Source: Clostridia bacterium | GTDB taxonomy: Bacteria; Bacillota; Clostridia; Oscillospirales; Acutalibacteraceae | Direction of reading: 5' to 3' | Assembly (NCBI GenBank): GCA_017381035.1 | Contig: JAFOCW010000046.1 | Span: forward strand, 1 to 33,592 | DNA: 33,592 nt | Shown: one piece after another, positions 3,878 through 17,550 of the stretch | How positions within the stretch are numbered: position 1 is the stretch's first letter | How the letters are laid out: each line of letters opens with the position of its first letter | The notes under the pieces: generated by a model | Seen by the model: the letters and a program-made list of their open reading frames with translations, nothing else | Told to the model about the DNA's origin: nothing | Databases searched by the model: none | Translations under genes and position numbers: made by a program

Positions 3878-5017
3878 TTATTTAAATATGTCTATTAGGT
3901 TTTGTTTATCTGTTTTAGTGATTTTTCCTTGAACGCAGTCGGGTCTGCCGCCGCCCTTACCCGAAAAGCTTTCGTTTAAGGCTTTGGCAAAACTTCTTGT
4001 ATCTCCAGTTTTTGATGTTACAAGGTAATTGAAGCCGTCGGCCGTTTCGGCAAAGAGCGCAATAAATAAGGCGCTATCGAGTTTTGCGTTTGCAATATTT
4101 CTAAGGGTATTAAAATCTGCTTCACCCGTAAAGCCAACAAGGGCATCGCCTACCGTTTGCATTTCAAGGGATGCTGCGGCAAGTTTTTCGGTAAGGCCTC
4201 TGATTTCTGAGCGAGCCGCCGATAAATCGTCGCCAAGCTTTTTAACCTGCTCGGCTATTTCTTCACGTTTGGCGGAAAGCTGTTTCATAATGGCCTTTGC
4301 GACGCCGTGCAAATAAGAATAATCTTGAAGCGCGAGCGAGCCTGCAACCATTTCTATACGGGTTCCGCCCTTAAAGGCGCAGAAATTAACAATTTTAATA
4401 AGGCCAATTTCCCCTGCTGACATAGGATGCGGTGCACAACAAGCGCAGGTATCGAACCCTTCGACAGTTATAAGTCTTACCCCTTCGGTAAGTTCAATTT
4501 TGCTACGGCAGTCTATGGTAGCAAACTCTTGTGCGGTGGGGTAAGAAACGGTGATTTTTGCATTTTGGAACACGGCTTTATTGGCCGCATCTTCAACCTT
4601 TTCAATATCATTTGCCGAAAGAGGACCGTCTACGTCGAAGGTAACAAGGCTGTCGTTCATATGGAAGCCGACGTTGTTATAGCCGAACATTTTATGAATA
4701 ACGCCCGAAAGCACGTGTTCGGCGCAGTGGTTTTGCATGCGGGAAAAGCGAAGCTCCCAATCGATTTTACCGGTAACGGTTTCACCGACACTAAGGGACT
4801 TTTCAAGGGTATGCACAATATCTTCGCCCTTTTCTTGAACGTCGAGCACAGCAATACCGTTAATTTCGCCCTTATCGGCCGCCTGACCGCCGCCTTCGGC
4901 GAAGAAGGCGGTCTTATCTAAAACAACTTCGTAGCCGCCGTCTGCCATATTACAGGAAAGCACGGTGGCGGTAAATTCCTTAATATAGGAATTGTTTTCG
5001 TAAAGCTTTAAGGTCAT
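3878..5017 (-). CDS. AlaX-L type alanyl-tRNA editing protein
   Basis: A 379-residue stand-alone editing protein that would hydrolyse mischarged Ser-tRNA(Ala) or Gly-tRNA(Ala). The N-terminal part has the AlaRS-type entry sequence TAFFAEGGGQAADKG (about residues 36-50). The zinc and catalytic site is visible as H97-x3-H101 (NHCAEH) and C193-x3-H197 within CACCAPH. A coiled coil spans about 245-285, and the end (FSGKGGGRPD) matches the DHHA1-type C-terminus found only in long AlaX proteins. The length is normal for AlaX-L. The ATG lies 1 base after the gatB stop with an AAGGA ribosome site inside gatB, so it is the last gene of the T-box operon. Function is family knowledge; its link to the amidotransferase genes is inference. 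Confidence 0.88.
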   Translation of the reverse strand: MTLKLYENNSYIKEFTATVLSCNMADGGYEVVLDKTAFFAEGGGQAADKGEINGIAVLDVQEKGEDIVHTLEKSLSVGETVTGKIDWELRFSRMQNHCAEHVLSGVIHKMFGYNNVGFHMNDSLVTFDVDGPLSANDIEKVEDAANKAVFQNAKITVSYPTAQEFATIDCRSKIELTEGVRLITVEGFDTCACCAPHPMSAGEIGLIKIVNFCAFKGGTRIEMVAGSLALQDYSYLHGVAKAIMKQLSAKREEIAEQVKKLGDDLSAARSEIRGLTEKLAAASLEMQTVGDALVGFTGEADFNTLRNIANAKLDSALFIALFAETADGFNYLVTSKTGDTRSFAKALNESFSGKGGGRPDCVQGKITKTDKQNLIDIFK

Positions 5018-5018
5018 A

Positions 5019-6428
5019 TTAGTTACCGAGTTCCTTGGTTAATAGTGCGCGAATAACGGCAGGGTCGCCATTGCCCTTAAGTTCACGCATACAAGCGCCG
5101 AATATAGCGCCGAAGGCTTTTTCTTTACCACCCTTGAAATCGGCTACTGCGGCAGGATTTGCGGCAATTGCGGCCTTTACAGCGGCAAGAACTGCGCCTT
5201 CATCAACCTTAGCGTTAAAGCCCTGCTCATCGCAGTACTTATCGACGTCAACGTTATTTTCGAACACGGCGGCAAGCACCTTTTTGCCTGCGGCACGTGT
5301 AATTTCGGAGCTGTCTACGAGTTCAATTATACGTGAAAGCTTTTCGGGTGCGATATTTAAGGTTTCAATACCTAAATAGCGCATACGGCTCATACATTCG
5401 GTAAGAATCCAGGAAGCAACACTCTTGGGTTCACGGCCCATTGCAACAACCGCATCGAACACAGAGCAAAGCTTAGCATCGCTTGCGAGCACTGCGGCTT
5501 CTTTGGTGGCAATACCCATATCTACGTATTTTTGGCCCTTTTCTTCGGCAGTAGCAGGCATACTTGCTTTAATTTCGGCAAGCCAACTATCGTCAATTAT
5601 GATGGGCATAAGGTTCGGGTCGGGGAAATAGCGGTAATCGGCCGCAGTTTCTTTATTACGCATTGGGAAGGTGCGACGTTTAACCTCGTCCCAACGGCGA
5701 GTTTCCTGAACGAGCATTTCGGTACGGCGTTCAATTGCGTCTACATGGCGCACCTTTTCAAATTCGATTGCATCTTTAATTTCTGCAAAGGAGCTCATAT
5801 TCTTGATTTCGGAACGGACGCCCAACTGGTCGGAGCCTTCGGGACGAACAGAAATGTTTACGTCGCAACGCATTGCGCCTTCTTCACATTCCGAAATACC
5901 TGCAAACTGAAGGGCTGCCTTAAGCTTTTTAAGGTAGGTTATAACTTCATCGGAGCTTCTGAAATCGGGTTTAGAAACAATTTCGATAAGGGGTACACTT
6001 GTACGGTTATAGTCTACAAGCGAAGTGTTGGTTGCGTCGTCGTGAACGAGCTTACCTGCGTCTTCTTCAATGTGAATTTGTTTAATACCGATTTCTCTTT
6101 CGCCAACCTGAACGGTACCTTCAACACAAACGGGGTTAAACCACTGTGTAATCTGGTAAGCGGAAGGAAGGTCGGGGTAATAGTAGCTCTTCTTATCGAA
6201 GGTGGTGTACTGATTAATTTTGCAGTTAAGCATTAAGCCTGCTTTAACTGCAAGCTCTATTGCGTGTTTATTGGTAACGGGAAGCATACCCGGCATACCC
6301 GCACAAGCAGGACAAACGCAATCGTTCGGCTCGTCGGCTGCAGCATGACCGCCGCAAGAGCAGAACAGTTTAGAATCGGTAGCAAGCTCTACGTGGGTTT
6401 CAAGACCAATGACAAGTTCGTACTTCAT
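5019..6428 (-). CDS. gatB: Asp/Glu-tRNA amidotransferase subunit GatB
   Basis: A 469-residue GatB, the subunit that phosphorylates tRNA-bound Asp or Glu and swaps in ammonia. The N-terminal catalytic cradle shows VIGLETHVEL, a four-cysteine zinc motif (CSCGGH and CVCPACAGMPG), KSYYYPDLPSAYQITQ, HIEEDAGKLVHD, YNRTSVPLIEIVSKPD, EGAMRCDVNIS and ADYRYFPDPNLMP, all well conserved. The C-terminal helical and YqeY-like tail domain is present (KGGKEKAFGAIFGACMRE). Nothing suggests inactivation. The ATG lies 1 base after the gatA stop, with AAGGAGG inside the end of gatA. An intact GatB next to a degenerate GatA is the odd point. Confidence 0.96.
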   Translation of the reverse strand: MKYELVIGLETHVELATDSKLFCSCGGHAAADEPNDCVCPACAGMPGMLPVTNKHAIELAVKAGLMLNCKINQYTTFDKKSYYYPDLPSAYQITQWFNPVCVEGTVQVGEREIGIKQIHIEEDAGKLVHDDATNTSLVDYNRTSVPLIEIVSKPDFRSSDEVITYLKKLKAALQFAGISECEEGAMRCDVNISVRPEGSDQLGVRSEIKNMSSFAEIKDAIEFEKVRHVDAIERRTEMLVQETRRWDEVKRRTFPMRNKETAADYRYFPDPNLMPIIIDDSWLAEIKASMPATAEEKGQKYVDMGIATKEAAVLASDAKLCSVFDAVVAMGREPKSVASWILTECMSRMRYLGIETLNIAPEKLSRIIELVDSSEITRAAGKKVLAAVFENNVDVDKYCDEQGFNAKVDEGAVLAAVKAAIAANPAAVADFKGGKEKAFGAIFGACMRELKGNGDPAVIRALLTKELGN

Positions 6429-6429
6429 A

Positions 6430-7593
6430 TTATGCTTCCTCCTTTTCTAAAACTTTTGCAAGGCTTAAAAGTTTGCCGTCGCAGAAGTAATCGCCTACAA
6501 GCTGAACGCCTGCGCTTACTACTGCCGGAAGGCCTGTAATAGATGCAGGTGCAGTAAACAGGCTTGCTTCGTAAACCTTTTCGAAGGCTTCTTCTTCGGG
6601 GTAGGTTTCATACTCTGTTTTAGCGTATGCAGGAAGTAAAAGCGCATTGTACTTAGATAAGATGGTCTTTAAGTTTTCAACTGCAATACGGCGTATTTTA
6701 AGGGCCTTATCGTAGCAGGCATCGTACTTGCCTTTTGATAACACGTCGGAGCCATATATAATGGTAGCCTTGGTTAAGAAACCGAAGGCTTCGGTGCGGC
6801 TGCCAACATAAAGCTCGTCGATATTCTTGTATTTTTCGGTGCGGTAACCGTACTTTACACCGTCGAAACGGGAAAGGTTGTTGGTTGTTTCGGCCGACAT
6901 AAGAATTGTCCAAGCGGTTTTAATTTCGGGAAGGTTGCCAACAACAACGAAGGCTACTTCTGCGCCCTGCTTTGTATAAGCCTTTGCGGCGGCATCAATT
7001 TTAGCCTTAACGCTTTGGTCTGCGGCATCGTAAAGCTCTTTTACAATGCCTATTTTCATACCCTTAACCGAAGCATTAGTATTGTATTCATACTTTTCGG
7101 TTTTAAGGCTTGTGCCGTCTTTAGCATCGTGGCCGGCAATAACGCCAAGAACTTCGGCGGCGGTATCGGCGCTGTTTGCTGTAACGCCAATCTGTTCGCC
7201 CGAGCAAGCGGCGGCAATTACACCGTAACGTGAAACAGTGCCGTAGGTGGGCTTTACAAAGGTAACGCCTTCAAGTGCGGCGGCACGACGGGGTGCGCCG
7301 TTTAAATCTACGTTTAGTGCGGCCTTAACACTGCCTTCTTTTACAAGTTTGGCGGCGGCAGAAATTTCGGAGCCGGTTTCGCCATAAAGGTCTAAGCCAA
7401 ATTCGCCAACTGCGGTTTTGCCCGAGATGGTGTAACCCTTGGCGGTAAGTCTTTCTACTGCTTCGGCAGAGAAAAGGGGCTTAAAGTTTTGAAGCATTTT
7501 GGAGCCTGCGGTAGAAGCAACGTCTTTTATAAGAATTGTATCGTCTACTGCGATAGTTCCGTTTTTGTTGATTTCAGTAATATATTTAGCCAA
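6430..7593 (-). CDS. Shortened GatA-like (amidase signature) protein lacking the nucleophile serine
   Basis: 387 residues from the TTG at 7593, placed 6-7 bases after AGAGGTG; the GTG at 7602 lies inside that ribosome site. GatA is normally about 485 residues and frees ammonia from glutamine with a Lys-cisSer-Ser triad. Here the conserved core is clear: ILIKD (Lys23 aligns with the catalytic Lys), TAGSKMLQNF, VKPTYGTVSRYGVIA, VIAGHDAKDGTS, NNLSRFDGVKYGYRT and GKYDACYDKALKIRR. But about 55 N-terminal residues are absent, the GGSSGGSAAA loop is reduced to TGSEISAAA, and the DTGGSIRQPA nucleophile motif reads DLNGAPRRAA, with Ala100 (GCA) where the Ser should be. The frame is intact, so it is under selection as a protein; a structural or scaffold role in GatCAB is inferred. 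Confidence 0.85.
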   Translation of the reverse strand: MAKYITEINKNGTIAVDDTILIKDVASTAGSKMLQNFKPLFSAEAVERLTAKGYTISGKTAVGEFGLDLYGETGSEISAAAKLVKEGSVKAALNVDLNGAPRRAAALEGVTFVKPTYGTVSRYGVIAAACSGEQIGVTANSADTAAEVLGVIAGHDAKDGTSLKTEKYEYNTNASVKGMKIGIVKELYDAADQSVKAKIDAAAKAYTKQGAEVAFVVVGNLPEIKTAWTILMSAETTNNLSRFDGVKYGYRTEKYKNIDELYVGSRTEAFGFLTKATIIYGSDVLSKGKYDACYDKALKIRRIAVENLKTILSKYNALLLPAYAKTEYETYPEEEAFEKVYEASLFTAPASITGLPAVVSAGVQLVGDYFCDGKLLSLAKVLEKEEA

Positions 7594-7608
7594 TTTACAC
7601 ACCTCTCT

Positions 7609-9714
7609 TTACTTTACAAGTCTTGGAACCTGCCAGCTGTCTTCGGTTGCCTGGGGCGCGCCCTTAAGCAAAGCTTCACGGCTGAAGGGTTGTTCTCTTT
7701 TATCGGTTCTGAGTACATTGGTCATTTCCTGAACGTGTACCATTACCTTTGTGTTTTCGGTATTGATATTACCAAGGTCTGCTTCTTTTTCGGCCATGGT
7801 TTTAAAGATTTTTTCCATTGCCTTCTTTTCGGCATCGGTGAATTTAAGCTCGTTCACCTGCTCGAGAGCTTCGAGCTTAGCCTTGCCCGAAGTTACGCCT
7901 GCCTTAGATGCAGAAACAACGTCTGCAAAGTTAGAGCCGTCGCCTGCGGTACCGAAGGTATCGGCGCCTTCTTTGCCACGAATGGAAACGTTGGCTTCGA
8001 AGAGCTGAAGTTCGGTTACTTCGCTGGGTGCGCCAAGAAGCTGGTCTTGTGCGGCGCCGTCGAGCGGGAATGCAATAACATCACGTATGGTTTCGGTATC
8101 AGCAAGGAGCATTACGATACGGTCTACACCCGGAGCCATACCTGCGTGTGGGGGTGCGCCGAACTGGAATGCATTATAAAGGGCAGAGAAACGCTTTTCA
8201 ACTTCGCTTTCTTCGTAGCCAGCAATAGAGAACGCCTTTCTCATAATTTCGGGGCTATGGTTACGAACAGCGCCCGAAGCAAGCTCTATACCGTTACAAA
8301 CAAGGTCGTACTGGTAGGCGTTAATGGTGCAGGGGTCTTTGGTTTCAAGCGCTTCAAGTCCGCCCTGCGGCATTGAGAAGGGGTTATGTGTGAAAATAAT
8401 GCTATCGGTAGTTTCGTCGAGTTCGTACATGGGGAAATCTACCACGAAGCAGAATTCGAAGGAGTCTTTATTAATAAGGCCGAGTTCGTTACCGAGCCAG
8501 GTACGAATAACGCCTGCGTTTTTATCGGCGGTGGAAGATACGTTGTCGCAAATGAAGAAGATGGTTTCGCCTTCTTTTACGCCGGTAAGCTCAACAATTT
8601 CCTTCTTCTGCTCGTCGGATAAAACCTTGGAAATGGGGTCGTCTTTAAAGGTATAGGTTGCGGCATTAAGCAAGGTGATGTGGGCAAGACCTGCCATTTT
8701 AGCCTGCTTTTGCGCAAAATCTAACGATTTGTCGAAGAACCAACGCTCTGCCTTACAGGGTGCAACAATGGCTCTTACGGGTTTATTCATAAAGGGCTTG
8801 AAGGGGGCACGAGTAAAGAAATCGGTTAAATCGCAGATAATAAGGGGGTTGCGAAGGTCGGGCTTATCGGAGCCGTAATTTGCCATTGCTTCTGCGAAGG
8901 GAATTCTTCTGAAAGGGGTAGATGAAATCTTTTTATCAGAGAAGGTGCGGAAAACGTCGGCAACAACCGATTCGCACACTTCCAATACTTCGTCTTGTGT
9001 GGCGAAAGCCATTTCGAAGTCGAGCTGATAGAATTCACCGGGTGAACGGTCGGCACGAGCATCTTCATCACGAAAGCAGGGCGCAATTTGGAAATATCTG
9101 TCGAAGCCCGACACCATAAGAAGCTGCTTGAACTGCTGGGGTGCCTGGGGAAGCGCATAGAATTTGCCCGGATGCTTACGGGAAGGTACAAGGAAATCTC
9201 GTGCGCCTTCGGGTGAAGAAGCGGTAAGAATGGGGGTTTGAATATCTAAAAAGCCTCTTTCTTCCATAAGGCGACGCATATGGCCGATAACCTTGGAACG
9301 AAGAATGATATTATCGTGAAGCTTTTTAGAACGAAGGTCTAAGAAGCGGTGCTTTAAACGAATATTTTCGTTTGTATTTACTGCGCCAACTTCGAAGGGA
9401 AGGTCCCTTGTGCAAGCGCCAAGCACGGTAACGCTGTTTGCAACAAGCTCTACGTCGCCTGTAGCAATTTTTGGGTTTTCGGTGCCTGCATCACGAAGGG
9501 TAACGGTTCCCTTAGTGGAAATTACCGTTTCCTTTGCTATGCCCTTTAATAAATTTTCGTCGTGAACTACAACCTGCGTTACACCGGTTTCATCACGAAG
9601 GTCCACAAAGAGCACGCCGCCGTGGTCTCTGATAACCTCGACCCAGCCGGCAAGTTCTACTTCTTGGCCGATGTGGTCCTTTCTTATGTCATTGCAACGA
9701 TGGGTTCTGTACAT
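7609..9714 (-). CDS. aspS: Aspartyl-tRNA synthetase fused to GatC
   Basis: 701 residues against about 590 for bacterial AspRS. Residues 1-100 are the OB-fold anticodon domain. Then come class II motif 1, motif 2 (CFRDEDARADRSPGEFYQ, about 213-230), the bacterial GAD insertion (about 290-415) and motif 3 (GMAPGVDRIVMLLAD). AspRS ends near 575 (APSEVTELQLFE). A Gly/Ser/Ala-rich linker (575-615) leads to a complete GatC-like domain at about 618-701, with FTDAEKKAMEKIF, NVLRTDKREQPFSREALLKG and WQVPRLVK matching GatC. It would charge tRNA(Asp), perhaps also tRNA(Asn), and carry the GatC clamp for GatA/GatB in cis. It is the first gene behind a T-box; stop to gatA start is 15 bases. AspRS specificity cannot be judged by eye. 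Confidence 0.93.
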   Translation of the reverse strand: MYRTHRCNDIRKDHIGQEVELAGWVEVIRDHGGVLFVDLRDETGVTQVVVHDENLLKGIAKETVISTKGTVTLRDAGTENPKIATGDVELVANSVTVLGACTRDLPFEVGAVNTNENIRLKHRFLDLRSKKLHDNIILRSKVIGHMRRLMEERGFLDIQTPILTASSPEGARDFLVPSRKHPGKFYALPQAPQQFKQLLMVSGFDRYFQIAPCFRDEDARADRSPGEFYQLDFEMAFATQDEVLEVCESVVADVFRTFSDKKISSTPFRRIPFAEAMANYGSDKPDLRNPLIICDLTDFFTRAPFKPFMNKPVRAIVAPCKAERWFFDKSLDFAQKQAKMAGLAHITLLNAATYTFKDDPISKVLSDEQKKEIVELTGVKEGETIFFICDNVSSTADKNAGVIRTWLGNELGLINKDSFEFCFVVDFPMYELDETTDSIIFTHNPFSMPQGGLEALETKDPCTINAYQYDLVCNGIELASGAVRNHSPEIMRKAFSIAGYEESEVEKRFSALYNAFQFGAPPHAGMAPGVDRIVMLLADTETIRDVIAFPLDGAAQDQLLGAPSEVTELQLFEANVSIRGKEGADTFGTAGDGSNFADVVSASKAGVTSGKAKLEALEQVNELKFTDAEKKAMEKIFKTMAEKEADLGNINTENTKVMVHVQEMTNVLRTDKREQPFSREALLKGAPQATEDSWQVPRLVK

Positions 9715-9740: not shown

Positions 9741-9784
9741 TAATAAATAAAAAGCCCCGAGAATACTAAAAAAGTATTCTCGGG
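9741..9784 (-). terminator. T-box leader terminator
   Basis: CCCGAGAATACT (9756-9767) pairs perfectly with AGTATTCTCGGG (9773-9784) around a 5-base loop, followed on the minus strand by TTTTTATTTATT. It is mutually exclusive with the T-box antiterminator. Confidence 0.9.
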
Positions 9785-9964
9785 ACGAATAAACAAAAGT
9801 TACCCGCGGTGCCACCCGTTTTGACGTTAAAAAATAACGCCCGCTTTTAATATTGAATTGTGGTAAACCGTCGAAGTGTTCCCATACTTACTACTCGTCT
9901 GAAATGCGCTTACAGTCGGCGACGCATTCTCCCTGGCAGACTTTCCACAAAAGCAGAGTCTTCG
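9785..9964 (-). ncRNA. T-box leader controlling the aspS-gatC / gatA / gatB / alaX operon
   Basis: The minus strand carries the T-box core GGGTGGCACCGCGGGT (9817-9802), which pairs with the CCA end of uncharged tRNA, directly before the terminator. The linker GAGTAGTA and a small stem-III-like hairpin precede it. The candidate Stem I is compact: GTCT/AGAC at the base and AATGCG/CGCATT above (9941-9897), closing a 14-base loop that contains GAC, an Asp codon, at 9917-9915. The T-box identity is secure from the core; the specifier assignment is tentative because Stem I is shorter than in canonical T-boxes. Confidence 0.88.
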
Positions 9965-12879: not shown

Positions 12880-15800
12880 TTAGATGCCGTTTGCAAGTAA
12901 AACAAGGTCACAAATATCGGTTACACCGTCGCCGTTAAGGTCGGCATTCTGGAGTGTAACTGCGCCGATAATGTGCTGTCTTAAAAGAGCAACGTCGGTA
13001 TAGTCTGCAGTTCCGTCGCCGTTTAAGTCGCCGAATACAGCTTCGGGAACGGTAAGTTCAGTAGGTATGCTGTAGAAGGCATAGACTTTGTTAATTTGAA
13101 TAGTAACGTAAATAGGTGTATCTGCATCGATACCGGTAATAGCACCTGTGTACTCATTTGTGGTACCGCTTGTGTCTTCACCAACACTGTAATAAATCTT
13201 ATAGTCGGTAAGGGTTGTAACGGTATCGGTATTCTTGTTCTTATACTTAACATCGCCGTCTACCGAAAGAACAACATTGCCGTCGGCATCTCTGTCTGCG
13301 GAAACAGTTGCGTTTCTGTAGTCCATAATATAAGCGTTGTATCTGTAAGCATTACCAAGAAGCTGAGTAGAGCCTTCAAGAATGAAGAAGCCCTGATAGA
13401 ACACCCAGTTACCCTGAACAGTACTGTCAACCAGACGGAAGGTTGGCTTGGTGTTTGTACCGAACACAATGGAGCTGAGCGCAATACCCTTATCGGCTGC
13501 CGAGGGAGAAATAACGGTAGAATTGTTAAGCTCTACGTAGCCGGTTGAACCGTCATAGCGGTAAATCTTAATCATAGATGCGGTTGAGCAACCCATATTG
13601 GTAAGGAGCGACTCATAACGGCAGTTATTAAGATAAAGCTTTGCTCCGGTTTTAACGGTGATATAGCCGTTATAGTAAGCATCGTTTGCAGAGTCGGTAA
13701 TAGGTGTAGCGGTTGCTGCAAGATAGAGTTTAACGTTGTTGAAGGTAAGCGTTTTATTTGCCGCAACGGTTATACGTGTATTGCCGTCTAAGATGATGGA
13801 ATACTGCTGACCACTCTTGCTTTGAATTACGGTGTTTGCGCCAATGGTAAGAGTACCAAGGTCGGTAAGGGTAATATCGGAAGTAAGGGTTAAAAGTGAA
13901 TCGCCGTTTGCAAGTGCTTCTGCGAAGCCTTCTGCGGTAGATACGGCAACACCTTCAACATATTCGCCGCAAACCTTTTCTTCGGTTAAGCCATAGTGAG
14001 AAGTGCCGGTATAACGGATGGCAACGTAAATAGGTGTTTCGTAATCTATGTCAGCTATAGGTGCGGTATATTCGGTTGCAGTGCCTGATGCGAATGCATC
14101 TTCGCTTAAGGCGTAGTAGATTACGTAATTTGCACTGTTTACAGCGGTGCCGGAGCCTATTTTGCTAAGTTCAATAAGGTTATCTTTATTTCTGGCGGCT
14201 TTAACGGTTACGTTTGTGAAATCGTAAAGCTTATAGCCGTTACCCTTGTAGCCCCTGTAATTTACAGTACCACGAATAACAAGGTTGGTAGATGTGCAGA
14301 GCCAGTCTGCGTTTACTCTTGCCAACACATCGGAATTTGTAATATAGAAGGTTGCGTTTGCGCCTGCAAGAAGTACGCCGTTATTGCCGCTGATAGAAGC
14401 GGTAATTTTAGAATTTTCAACGTAAATCTTACTTGCGGCATTCTGGTCGGCTCTTAAAAGAGCGTGGTCAGTTGAGCCAATGTCGGAAGACAAACAATTA
14501 ATGGTGCTGTTTTTAATATAGAGTGTAGCTGCGGTATTATCGCTACCTACGGTAATGTAACCCTGTCCCCAGGAAGTAAGCTGAGTAGCGGTTGCTGCTA
14601 CGGTTACGTTAACACCGTTAATGGTTGCGGTCTTGCCCTGAGCTACAACAAGGCGTGATGTGCCGTCAAGAGTAATGGTAAAGTTGTTGCCCTGTGTGCT
14701 CTTGATAGTAGTATTGGCATTAATTGTAAGGTTGCCGAGGTCAGCAAGGGTAATATCTGAAGTTAAGGTAATAACGGTTTCGTAATTTGCAAGTGCTTCT
14801 ACAAAGCCGTCGGCGGTAGATACTGCAACACCTTCAATATATTCGCCGCAGGTTTTAGAAGTAACGTCGCCATAATAGGAAGTTCCTGTATAATAAACCG
14901 TTGCATATACGGGTGTTTCGTAATCAACGTCTGCGATGGGGCCTGTATATTCTATAGCTGTACCTGCAGCAAATGCAGTATCTTCAAAAGCATAATAAAT
15001 TTTGTAATTATCGCTTGTTACCGCTGTGCCTGTGCCAACCTTAGAAAGCTCGATAAGGTTATCTTTATTTCTTGCAATTTTTACGGTTGCATTTCTGAAA
15101 TCGTAAAGCTTAGCGCTGTTATGCTTCCAACCAACGTAAGAAGAGTTGCCGTACAGAATAATTTTAGCCGAAGAGGTGCAGAACCAAGCGCCCGATTTAG
15201 CGTTGGTCATAGAAGTATCGGTTGCATAAACAGTAATGTACTGTCCTAAAATTGAACCACCTGAGCTTGTATTGGTAACCGCTGATGTAACAACAGAATT
15301 TTCAAATCTTACAGCACTTGATGCGTTTTTAGAAGAAGCAATTATACCTGTGTTTGCAGCGCCTAAATTGGTTGAAAGATTTTTAATTGTAGAGTTGTAA
15401 ATGTATAAATCGGCTCTGTTACCGCCGCTACCAACGGTAATGTAGGTGCCGTTATTATATGCGTCGGCAATGGTGTTTGCTGTAGCTGCTATGGTAATAC
15501 CGATGCCGTCGAAGGTAACCTTCTTACCCTTTGCAACAACAAGCCTTGCGGCGCCGTCGAGTGTAAGGGTGTATTTTTGTCCTTCTACGCTCTTAACGGT
15601 TGTATTTGCATTAAAGGTAACAACGTCTGTAAGGGTAATGTCCCCTGCCAAAATAATTTCTTTATCTCCGCGGTTTACTGCTTCTGCGAAAAGGTCAGCA
15701 GTGGTGGTTGGGGGAATATCTTCGTAAACTGCAGTTAAAACGGTGTCTTCGGTAAGGGTTGTAGCAAAATCGAATTTGGTTTCGCCGTCGAGTGTCCAAT

Positions 15801-17550
15801 ATTTGAAGGACTTACCTGTCATAATGGGGTTTGCAGGCTTGGCAACTGCTTCGCCCGAATTAATCTTGCGGGTAAAGATTCCTCTGTCGGTGCCTCCGTC
15901 AAAGGTAACCTCAACATCCTTTACGGGTGTAGTCTTATGAATGGTATAGGTGTCATAAGGAGTATCTTCAATAAAGTCATCGTCAAGAAGACTTAAAGGT
16001 TTGCTGTCGGATACTCTGGGAGTGCCACCGTTATTAATCCAGAAGGTTTCTACTTTAAGTTGGTCGTTACCCTGGGCATCTTTGCCAACGGTAACCTTGG
16101 TTATAGCGCCTTGACCTTCCTTTGTGTTTATAGAGAAGGCACTGGTTGCAGCGAGTGTAGAACCTGCTATAGTTGCATACTGGTCGTGGCCTTCTGCAGT
16201 AAGAGAATCAAGATGAACATAGGTAATACCTTGTGGATCATATCTTTCTACGGTTTTATTGTAATCAACACCGGCGAGTTCATCGTAATAATGTCCTGTT
16301 GTATGTTTTACGGCGCCAACAAAGGTATCCTGAACTTGAACATCGTTTGCGCCAAGTGGCTCAACCGAGCCGGAGCAAGCTGCGCAAGAGAATACGGGTG
16401 AGCTCTTTTCGTGGGTACAGGTAAGGGCCGAATCGTAAACTAAAGACTCTGTACGGGTGTAAAGATGGTGATGTCCGTTGAAAACAAGGTCGATATCATA
16501 CTTGCTGATAACCGAAGTGAAGTCTTTTCTCCAGTTCTTTCCACCACCACCATTAGCATAGAAGCCCTGATGTGTTTGAAGGATGGTCCAACGGGTATCG
16601 GGATGAGCTGCTTTTGCATCTTTAATAAGCTGGTCAAGGTCGGTCATCATAGAAGTCTGCTGTGGACCACTGTTAAAGGTAATGAAAAGCACGTCGCCGT
16701 AACGGAACCAATGGTCCTGACGTCCGTTTGCTGCAGGAGGATTCTGTAAAGCGAGTGTTGGATGGTCGGAGAAATTGATTCTGTCGCCATTTGTGCAAAG
16801 GTTAAGCTCGTGGTTGCCCACAACAACTGCTATGGGGTAGGTTGCTAAAACATCCTGCGCGGTAAAGTAAGCGTTATAGTTTCTGTCATTATTCTCGTGA
16901 ACGTTGTCGCCGAGATTCATAATAAAATCTATATCGTCAAACTTATCGACTGATAGCTCAAGAGCCTTTTTCATATAGTCGCCGTAATACTGGTCGGCAG
17001 TCTGAGAGTCGCCGAAAACGAGATATGAAAAGCCTTCGTTAGGGTCGGAATCGGCAACTTGGGTGGTGTAATCTTTACTCCAGTTAGTGCCGTCGCCGAG
17101 CTGATAGGTATAGCTTACTCCGTATTCAAGGCCGGACACGGTTACCATATTATAATAAGGTAAGGTGTAAGTTCCGTGGTAGCACTGAGAAGCGGTACAA
17201 GCTTCGTGGCCGCAAATATCACTGCAGGTATGGCCACAGTTTTTAACAAAGGTATCGTGGTAACCTTCCTCGTAGCCGTCCTTTATAACGAATGCCTTGC
17301 TTTCGCCTGTAAAGACGGTCCATTCATCAGAGCCTTCGGCTTTGATACGAACCGAAGCAGGGTTGGCAAGTTCTTCACTTTGCCAAGAGAAATTAAGATA
17401 TGTATCGTCAATACCAGGATGAATGTTGATGCGGCTTGCAGTGTAAACGCCGTCTTCAGCAAAGGCGGTTACTCCCGTGAAAAGAGATACAACAAGCATT
17501 ACAACACTTAAAAGCAAAGATAGTGCTTTTTTAAACATTTTGTTTTGCAT
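12880..17550 (-). CDS. Secreted metallophosphoesterase with beta-helix repeats and C-terminal dockerin
   Basis: 1,556 residues. Signal peptide 1-31 (cleavage near VTAFA-ED). Residues 34-165 resemble the fibronectin-like domain of purple acid phosphatase-type proteins but carry a Cys/His insertion (C105, C109, C113, C118, C123). The phosphoesterase core (about 175-500) has GDSQ (180), LGDNVHEN (213), VVGNHE (243), QTH (325) and NGHHH (358), the metal ligands of the calcineurin-like family; a second cysteine cluster (C378, C389, C392) follows. Residues 547-611 resemble an InlB B-repeat. Three homologous modules of about 290 residues (615-905, 906-1200, 1201-1490) look like right-handed beta helices. 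Residues 1506-1556 are a type I dockerin with two DLNGDG calcium loops. The start follows AGGAGG at 17559-17564. It is last in the glycan operon, 20 bases after the CBM gene. Substrate unknown. Confidence 0.88.
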   Translation of the reverse strand: MQNKMFKKALSLLLSVVMLVVSLFTGVTAFAEDGVYTASRINIHPGIDDTYLNFSWQSEELANPASVRIKAEGSDEWTVFTGESKAFVIKDGYEEGYHDTFVKNCGHTCSDICGHEACTASQCYHGTYTLPYYNMVTVSGLEYGVSYTYQLGDGTNWSKDYTTQVADSDPNEGFSYLVFGDSQTADQYYGDYMKKALELSVDKFDDIDFIMNLGDNVHENNDRNYNAYFTAQDVLATYPIAVVVGNHELNLCTNGDRINFSDHPTLALQNPPAANGRQDHWFRYGDVLFITFNSGPQQTSMMTDLDQLIKDAKAAHPDTRWTILQTHQGFYANGGGGKNWRKDFTSVISKYDIDLVFNGHHHLYTRTESLVYDSALTCTHEKSSPVFSCAACSGSVEPLGANDVQVQDTFVGAVKHTTGHYYDELAGVDYNKTVERYDPQGITYVHLDSLTAEGHDQYATIAGSTLAATSAFSINTKEGQGAITKVTVGKDAQGNDQLKVETFWINNGGTPRVSDSKPLSLLDDDFIEDTPYDTYTIHKTTPVKDVEVTFDGGTDRGIFTRKINSGEAVAKPANPIMTGKSFKYWTLDGETKFDFATTLTEDTVLTAVYEDIPPTTTADLFAEAVNRGDKEIILAGDITLTDVVTFNANTTVKSVEGQKYTLTLDGAARLVVAKGKKVTFDGIGITIAATANTIADAYNNGTYITVGSGGNRADLYIYNSTIKNLSTNLGAANTGIIASSKNASSAVRFENSVVTSAVTNTSSGGSILGQYITVYATDTSMTNAKSGAWFCTSSAKIILYGNSSYVGWKHNSAKLYDFRNATVKIARNKDNLIELSKVGTGTAVTSDNYKIYYAFEDTAFAAGTAIEYTGPIADVDYETPVYATVYYTGTSYYGDVTSKTCGEYIEGVAVSTADGFVEALANYETVITLTSDITLADLGNLTINANTTIKSTQGNNFTITLDGTSRLVVAQGKTATINGVNVTVAATATQLTSWGQGYITVGSDNTAATLYIKNSTINCLSSDIGSTDHALLRADQNAASKIYVENSKITASISGNNGVLLAGANATFYITNSDVLARVNADWLCTSTNLVIRGTVNYRGYKGNGYKLYDFTNVTVKAARNKDNLIELSKIGSGTAVNSANYVIYYALSEDAFASGTATEYTAPIADIDYETPIYVAIRYTGTSHYGLTEEKVCGEYVEGVAVSTAEGFAEALANGDSLLTLTSDITLTDLGTLTIGANTVIQSKSGQQYSIILDGNTRITVAANKTLTFNNVKLYLAATATPITDSANDAYYNGYITVKTGAKLYLNNCRYESLLTNMGCSTASMIKIYRYDGSTGYVELNNSTVISPSAADKGIALSSIVFGTNTKPTFRLVDSTVQGNWVFYQGFFILEGSTQLLGNAYRYNAYIMDYRNATVSADRDADGNVVLSVDGDVKYKNKNTDTVTTLTDYKIYYSVGEDTSGTTNEYTGAITGIDADTPIYVTIQINKVYAFYSIPTELTVPEAVFGDLNGDGTADYTDVALLRQHIIGAVTLQNADLNGDGVTDICDLVLLANGI

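Follow-up and report, generated by a model that had tools for sequence, protein, structure and literature searches.

The contig JAFOCW010000046.1 of the Clostridia bacterium assembly GCA_017381035.1 (33,592 nucleotides, all of which were analyzed and are referred to here as the window) carries on its reverse strand a T-box-preceded operon for an aspartyl-tRNA synthetase (AspRS) fused to GatC, a GatA-fold protein and GatB. Judged by its sequence, the GatA-fold protein lacks a glutaminase site, and we refer to it and its relatives as GatA*. The encoded complex is very probably an Asp-tRNA(Asn) amidotransferase with GatA* as a scaffold, because the T-box carries an Asn codon, asparaginyl-tRNA synthetase (AsnRS) is absent from 23 of 26 genomes with GatA*, and GatA* is the sole GatA found in nine genomes. 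It is also probable that this amidotransferase no longer uses glutamine. The scaffold-only role suggested in the initial annotation is thus well supported comparatively, by these three observations and by the clade, purifying selection and fold described below.

The gatA* frame is open throughout at positions 6430–7602 of the reverse strand and encodes 390 residues from a GTG start at 7602. The initial annotation had correctly described an intact, stop-free frame but placed its end at 7593, where a TTG does lie in frame and would give 387 residues; the GTG was taken as the start instead. The protein matches Pfam Amidase (E 1e-47) and the gatA model TIGR00132 (243.3 bits over profile positions 60–463, below the equivalog cut-off of 481.1), and the GatA fold extends across the full protein, in agreement with the earlier description of a GatA-like protein along most of its length. 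By comparison, the Ser–cis-Ser–Lys triad of amidase signature enzymes is absent. The nucleophile Ser178 is replaced by Ala in DLNGAPRRAA (Ala100 counting from the TTG, Ala103 from the GTG; GCA codon at 7294–7296 of the reverse strand, placed by hand), and all that remains of the GGSSGGS loop is TGSEIS (7360–7377, reverse strand, also placed by hand), so that the cis-Ser Ser154 is lost; both changes had been read correctly before. The catalytic Lys, by comparison, had been taken as retained in ILIKD, which proved wrong. The canonical IAIKDN pairs with IAVDDT both in phmmer comparisons with the GatA proteins of T. maritima and A. aeolicus and when canonical relatives are aligned by MAFFT, which places Asp20 (codon at 7543–7545 of the reverse strand, placed by hand) at the position of Lys79 (numbering of the canonical protein L034; L and G numbers are our labels for loci and genomes). 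The Lys of ILIKD is K26, a distinct residue that is nearly invariant in the alignment, canonical GatAs included. Ahead of the catalytic Lys position, GatA* has ~59 residues fewer than L034, confirming the N-terminal shortening noted earlier.

At the two columns that we assign, by motif, as the glutamine-binding positions, Arg358 is replaced by Thr and Asp425 by Ser. The glutaminase site has been lost as a whole, since the nucleophile, the loop, the Lys, Arg358 and Asp425 are all replaced or gone. The roles of the triad residues in GatA, and the binding of glutamine by one Arg and one Asp, are taken from part of the yeast GatFAB study (PMC4027206). Across 36 canonical GatAs, 120 columns reach near-invariance (at least 97%). 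Of these, 54 remain conserved in at least 80% of 34 core GatA* relatives, another 58 fall short of this and 8 have been deleted; in some of the 58, the canonical residue is still the commonest one among the GatA* relatives.

The same protein occurs in seven of the nine other genomes of the genus, with identities of 58–81%. A contig scan returned further proteins of the GatA* type among its best 80 loci (L013–L033 and L054, of which L013–L015 are contigs already counted in the genus). Searching 120 family genomes with Pfam added 12 proteins, selected for the shape of their match, and a profile search of 293 class genomes added at least six, selected for their short frames; alignment confirmed the family and class proteins. 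GatA* is therefore present in at least seven of the 293 class genomes, the window's own included. We surveyed 45 distinct GatA* proteins (the window's and 44 relatives, the one at L162 with just 300 residues) against 36 canonical rows, all of which show the five glutaminase features. The Lys79 column of GatA* holds Asp in 40 proteins, Glu in three, Gly in one and Thr in one, and Lys in none; the GGSS motif is likewise missing from all 45, with a Ser aligned at the cis-Ser column in L161 alone, where the motif is absent. Arg358 is kept in two proteins (L152 and L153) and Asp425 in none. The normal nucleophile Ser, looked for in relatives as a sign that the window's Ala might be an error, does occur in 6/45 (L029, L152, L153, L157, L158 and L222), but it restores no active site, because the Lys and the GGSS motif are both missing from every one of the 45.

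GatA* also stands apart in phylogeny and evolves under constraint. In a maximum-likelihood tree one branch (support 99/98) separates 39 of the 45 GatA* rows from the 36 canonical GatAs, and in the GatB tree the 32 rows from GatA* operons split from 52 canonical rows (100/100). Both trees are unrooted; the six class-level GatA* proteins were left out, L054 and L161 form long branches, and a few of the 52 canonical GatB rows are the same gene fetched twice. The ratios of nonsynonymous to synonymous substitution rates (dN/dS; Nei–Gojobori method, our own script, eight pairs) are 0.063–0.191 for GatA*, 0.028–0.066 for GatB and 0.030–0.058 for AspRS–GatC, and GatA* is under clear purifying selection, weaker than that on its operon neighbors. 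A sequencing or assembly error, or a pseudogene, might be suspected in a metagenome assembly that is 73% complete; the same loss in 44 proteins of other assemblies, the open frames and the low dN/dS rule it out for practical purposes.

As the initial annotation stated, gatA* lies between an intact gatB and an AspRS–GatC fusion with a T-box leader. The aspS–gatC fusion (7609–9714, reverse strand, 701 residues) comprises a bacterial AspRS in residues 1–579 and a C-terminal GatC domain in residues 625–694 (7633–7842, reverse strand; PF02686, E 1.3e-7), which supplies the GatC of a GatCAB-type amidotransferase. The gatB gene (5019–6428, reverse strand) encodes 469 residues with intact ATP- and Mg-binding residues: Glu10, His12, both Glu of HIEEDAGKL, Glu149, Asn191 and Ser193 are kept in 32/32 rows. 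In addition, all 32 rows from GatA* operons share K79, T94, S144 and H228 (window numbering), the corresponding residues being R, S, G and Q in at least 51 of 52 canonical rows. The gene order AspRS, GatC (fused or separate), GatA*, GatB recurs in the loci examined, except that ~2.5 kb separate AspRS from GatC in L154 and L161 has one extra frame; in L152 GatC was unrecognized by BLAST, and loci at contig ends miss part of the operon.

The leader upstream of the fusion (9778–9964, reverse strand) is identified as a T-box with a shortened stem I by a match to RF00230 at 9778–9931 (41.2 bits, E 7e-8), by its stem I and by covariation. It contains the antiterminator motif GGGTGGNACCGCG and a stem I with a specifier codon, which reads AAC (Asn) at 9878–9880 of the reverse strand. 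We aligned 28 of 30 leaders; AAC occupies the specifier position in 28/28, the shortened stem I is shared, 20 of 29 pairs show changes on both sides, and the covariation score is 0.402 compared with at most 0.136 for slid partners. The T-box motif was found upstream in 30/33 loci tested and in addition in 4/5 class loci with an AspRS start. The two leaders left out of the alignment, L030 (~7620–7830) and L032 (~7656–7866), are T-box leaders of a different layout upstream of AspRS and have GAACAC at a possible specifier site.

The aminoacyl-tRNA inventory agrees with a role in Asn-tRNA formation. Among the 26 GatA* genomes, 23 are without AsnRS and 22 have glutaminyl-tRNA synthetase (GlnRS): in the 20 family genomes AsnRS exceeds the cut-off in three (G023, G065 and G090) and GlnRS in 17, and in the six class genomes AsnRS is found in none and GlnRS in five. 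GlnRS over the cut-off was not found in G022, G105, G073 and G346. Outside these four, formation of Gln-tRNA as the main task was rejected in view of GlnRS in 22/26 genomes and the AAC specifier. Full-length AsnRS-like matches in G002, G009, G174 and G003 were set aside as well, since NCBIfam classifies them as archaeal-type aspartate–tRNA(Asn) ligases rather than AsnRS. In nine genomes that are at least 90% complete, GatA* is the sole GatA found and AsnRS was not found: G001, G002 and G084, and, among the matches listed, G269, G174, G373, G346, G250 and G243. The genus search behind G001 and G002 did detect canonical GatA in G003 and G009, and in G001, which is 97% complete, the sole AspRS found is the GatC fusion. 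In a cell with neither AsnRS nor another GatA, Asn-tRNA must be made by this complex or by some unrecognized route. Some members of the family have lost Gat entirely: 39 of 120 genomes gave no PF01425 match, and the three of these that were tested (G012, G024 and G025) have AsnRS and GlnRS, with GatB not found.

The identity elements of tRNA-Asn were read in 12 places. A first search pattern gave no match in 26 genomes, and a looser one gave 17 matches in 14 of 26; L230, a tRNA-Ser, and L229, which falls within the AspRS gene of G003, were not counted, and L238 and L239 are outside the reading. The U1–A72 pair is present in G001, G002, G010, G045, G016 (two genes), G021, G250 and G373, all without AsnRS, while G1–C72 is found in G024 and G065 (L224), both with AsnRS, and also in G269, where AsnRS was not found and which thus breaks the pattern; in G012, where AsnRS is present and L233 begins at a contig end, just position 72 is readable, and it is a C. 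According to part of a published study, U1–A72 is the pair recognized by GatCAB (PMC4206432).

From these sequences we infer that the operon products form a complex with transamidation activity and that its AspRS has a relaxed tRNA specificity. The T-box would sense uncharged tRNA-Asn and activate the operon; AspRS, within the fusion, would place Asp on tRNA-Asn, and the GatC part would tether AspRS to the amidotransferase. GatB would then use ATP to phosphorylate the Asp side chain before amidating it. GatA* would support GatB structurally and probably form the GatA portion of the ammonia path, by which free NH3/NH4+ would get to GatB. The amide donor is the least certain element of this model; free ammonium is the likeliest candidate, because yeast GatFAB accepts NH4Cl and becomes more active with it when the extension of GatF into the glutaminase site is truncated (PMC4027206).

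Another conceivable source of ammonia is an asparaginase-like protein. Within the fetched stretches of one scan, an asparaginase-like gene accompanies 7 of 21 GatA* loci compared with 1 of 58 other gatA loci, 56 of which show the active-site motifs; the 21 loci include near relatives with unequal flanks and are not 21 independent events. Such a gene is also present in 4/12 family loci with short flanks and in 3/6 class loci, and it stands directly behind gatB (L027 and L160) or between gatB and alaX (L218 and L219). Furthermore, PF00710 is detected in 15 of 17 GatA* genomes without AsnRS and in none of the three with AsnRS. Four linked copies match the type I asparaginase and GatD models, under the cut-offs of these. 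The linked protein might therefore replace the glutaminase and hand over ammonia (and Asp), as GatD does for GatE. However, when 26 asparaginase-like proteins were aligned, the column that we take to be that of the catalytic Lys held Lys in just two (G022 and the control L072), with a Lys one column earlier in three; unlinked copies, including that of G025, which has no Gat, also lack it. Moreover, the gene is not adjacent to the operon in the window's genus, and in L028 it lies behind an additional gatA, which is longer, and an additional gatB. Salvage offers a simpler reason for the linkage, as free Asn in a cell without AsnRS is useful just as Asp plus NH3. The complex may receive ammonia from this protein, or the protein may simply convert imported Asn to Asp. 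Because 24 of the 26 proteins have no Lys at the presumed catalytic column, an obligatory asparaginase partner is weakened and we regard the coupled amidotransferase as unlikely. In their own right, linked asparaginase-like genes were recorded at L020, L021, L025, L027, L028, L029 and L033 and further at L158, L160, L161, L162, L217, L218 and L219, and many of the aligned proteins have a QC motif beside the Lys place.

The initial annotation had also offered GatA* as the partner of a second, active GatA, which would supply the ammonia or do the real work. Canonical GatA does occur alongside GatA* in 7 of 26 genomes (G003, G009, G010, G016, G021, G023 and G045), and in G003 and G009 an extra canonical gatA/gatB adjoins an archaeal-type AspRS (L167 and L168). 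By comparison, G002 (L169) and G174 (L240) have the archaeal-type AspRS with no canonical GatA found (in G174, among the matches listed), and the nine nearly complete genomes with just GatA* make such a partnership a highly improbable general explanation.

Several observations weigh against the scaffold model, and some of them fit a vestigial operon that nears loss while Asn-tRNA is made by an unrecognized route, such as an AspRS turned AsnRS. G023, G065 and G090 carry AsnRS beside GatA*, and the complex there may be idle or do something else, given the AsnRS and the G1–C72 tRNA-Asn of G065. The tRNA-Asn of G269 (92% complete; L235) is G1–C72 though AsnRS was not found, contrary to the usual rule for GatCAB substrates. 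The dN/dS of GatA* exceeds that of its operon neighbors by a factor of 1.2 to 5, and its constraint is thus reduced. As for the leader, the RF00230 match lies below the Rfam gathering score (41.2 compared with 93), a scan of the window at gathering level gave no match, and the single leader folds no better than its shuffles (z +1.68; 193/200 at least as good); since this score and this fold are weak, the case for a T-box rests on the motif and the covariation. The motif was not found in the stretches searched upstream of L152, L153, L154 and L221. Neither tRNA-Asn nor an asparaginase was found in the window's own genome, absences that prove little because that genome is 73% complete. Against decay stand the purifying selection, the full operon with its AAC T-box in deep relatives, the GatB catalytic residues kept in 32/32 rows and the absence of AsnRS from 23/26 genomes, and we consider a vestigial operon very unlikely. 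On the most far-reaching reading, this amidotransferase would have given up glutamine for good, retaining GatA as a scaffold and drawing ammonia from ambient ammonium or from the linked asparaginase-like protein.

A dead glutaminase half in a kept protein suggests a structural role of GatA that is separable from catalysis, and the operon offers a natural system for studying how GatB takes up outside ammonia. If the model holds, decoding of Asn codons in these gut bacteria would be tied to the supply of ammonium (or asparagine); in the asparaginase form, gut Asn would be taken apart and then rebuilt on its tRNA. For annotation, finding a GatA is no proof that the amide comes from glutamine.

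Directly after gatB lies an alaX-like editing gene (3878–5017, reverse strand), which is near gatB in several relatives too; its membership in the system is uncertain. AlaX-like alanyl-tRNA editing proteins with a DHHA1-type tail are encoded behind gatB in the window and in L013, L014, L015, L159, L165, L166 and L217, and in L218 and L219 the gene comes after gatB and the asparaginase-like gene. Elsewhere in the window, positions 12880–17550 of the reverse strand encode a 1556-residue protein with a purple-acid-phosphatase N-terminal domain, a calcineurin-like phosphoesterase domain, repeats and a C-terminal type I dockerin.

Each part of the system is known by itself: GatCAB, the regulation of tRNA-dependent Asn synthesis by T-boxes in Clostridia, AspRS–GatC fusions and archaeal GatDE. 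We found no report of a conserved glutaminase-dead GatA as a cell's sole GatA in the open-access literature, to which the search was confined, subscription journals lying outside it. A 2012 paper reportedly, by its title, concerns a T-box that regulates the tRNA-dependent route to Asn in Clostridia, which resembles the control proposed here. The bifunctional AspRS/GatC family PRK12820 (NF009460) shares the arrangement of AspRS with a C-terminal GatC, but the window fusion scores 438 bits against its cut-off of 1379 and represents the same architecture in another family. As with AsnA, the ammonia-dependent asparagine synthetase, the Asn amide would come from free ammonia, although AsnA acts on free Asp rather than on tRNA. 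In archaeal GatDE, a GatB homologue works without a GatA glutaminase and the asparaginase-type GatD is the ammonia source. The present system is alike in the former respect, and an asparaginase-type ammonia source would extend the likeness, but here a GatA-fold subunit is retained and the coupling is putative, the linked genes falling under the GatD cut-offs and mostly lacking the Lys; that the asparaginase-supplied form is an independently arisen bacterial counterpart of GatDE is a rather unlikely, if attractive, idea. As a rule, the coupling of glutaminase to amidotransferase makes free ammonia unnecessary. With bacterial GatCAB the system shares the GatA fold, an intact GatB, GatC, the gene neighborhood, an AspRS partner and, in most genomes read, a U1–A72 tRNA-Asn; it differs in a GatA without a glutaminase site, in the fusion of GatC to AspRS and in a GatB that forms its own clade with four distinctive residues.
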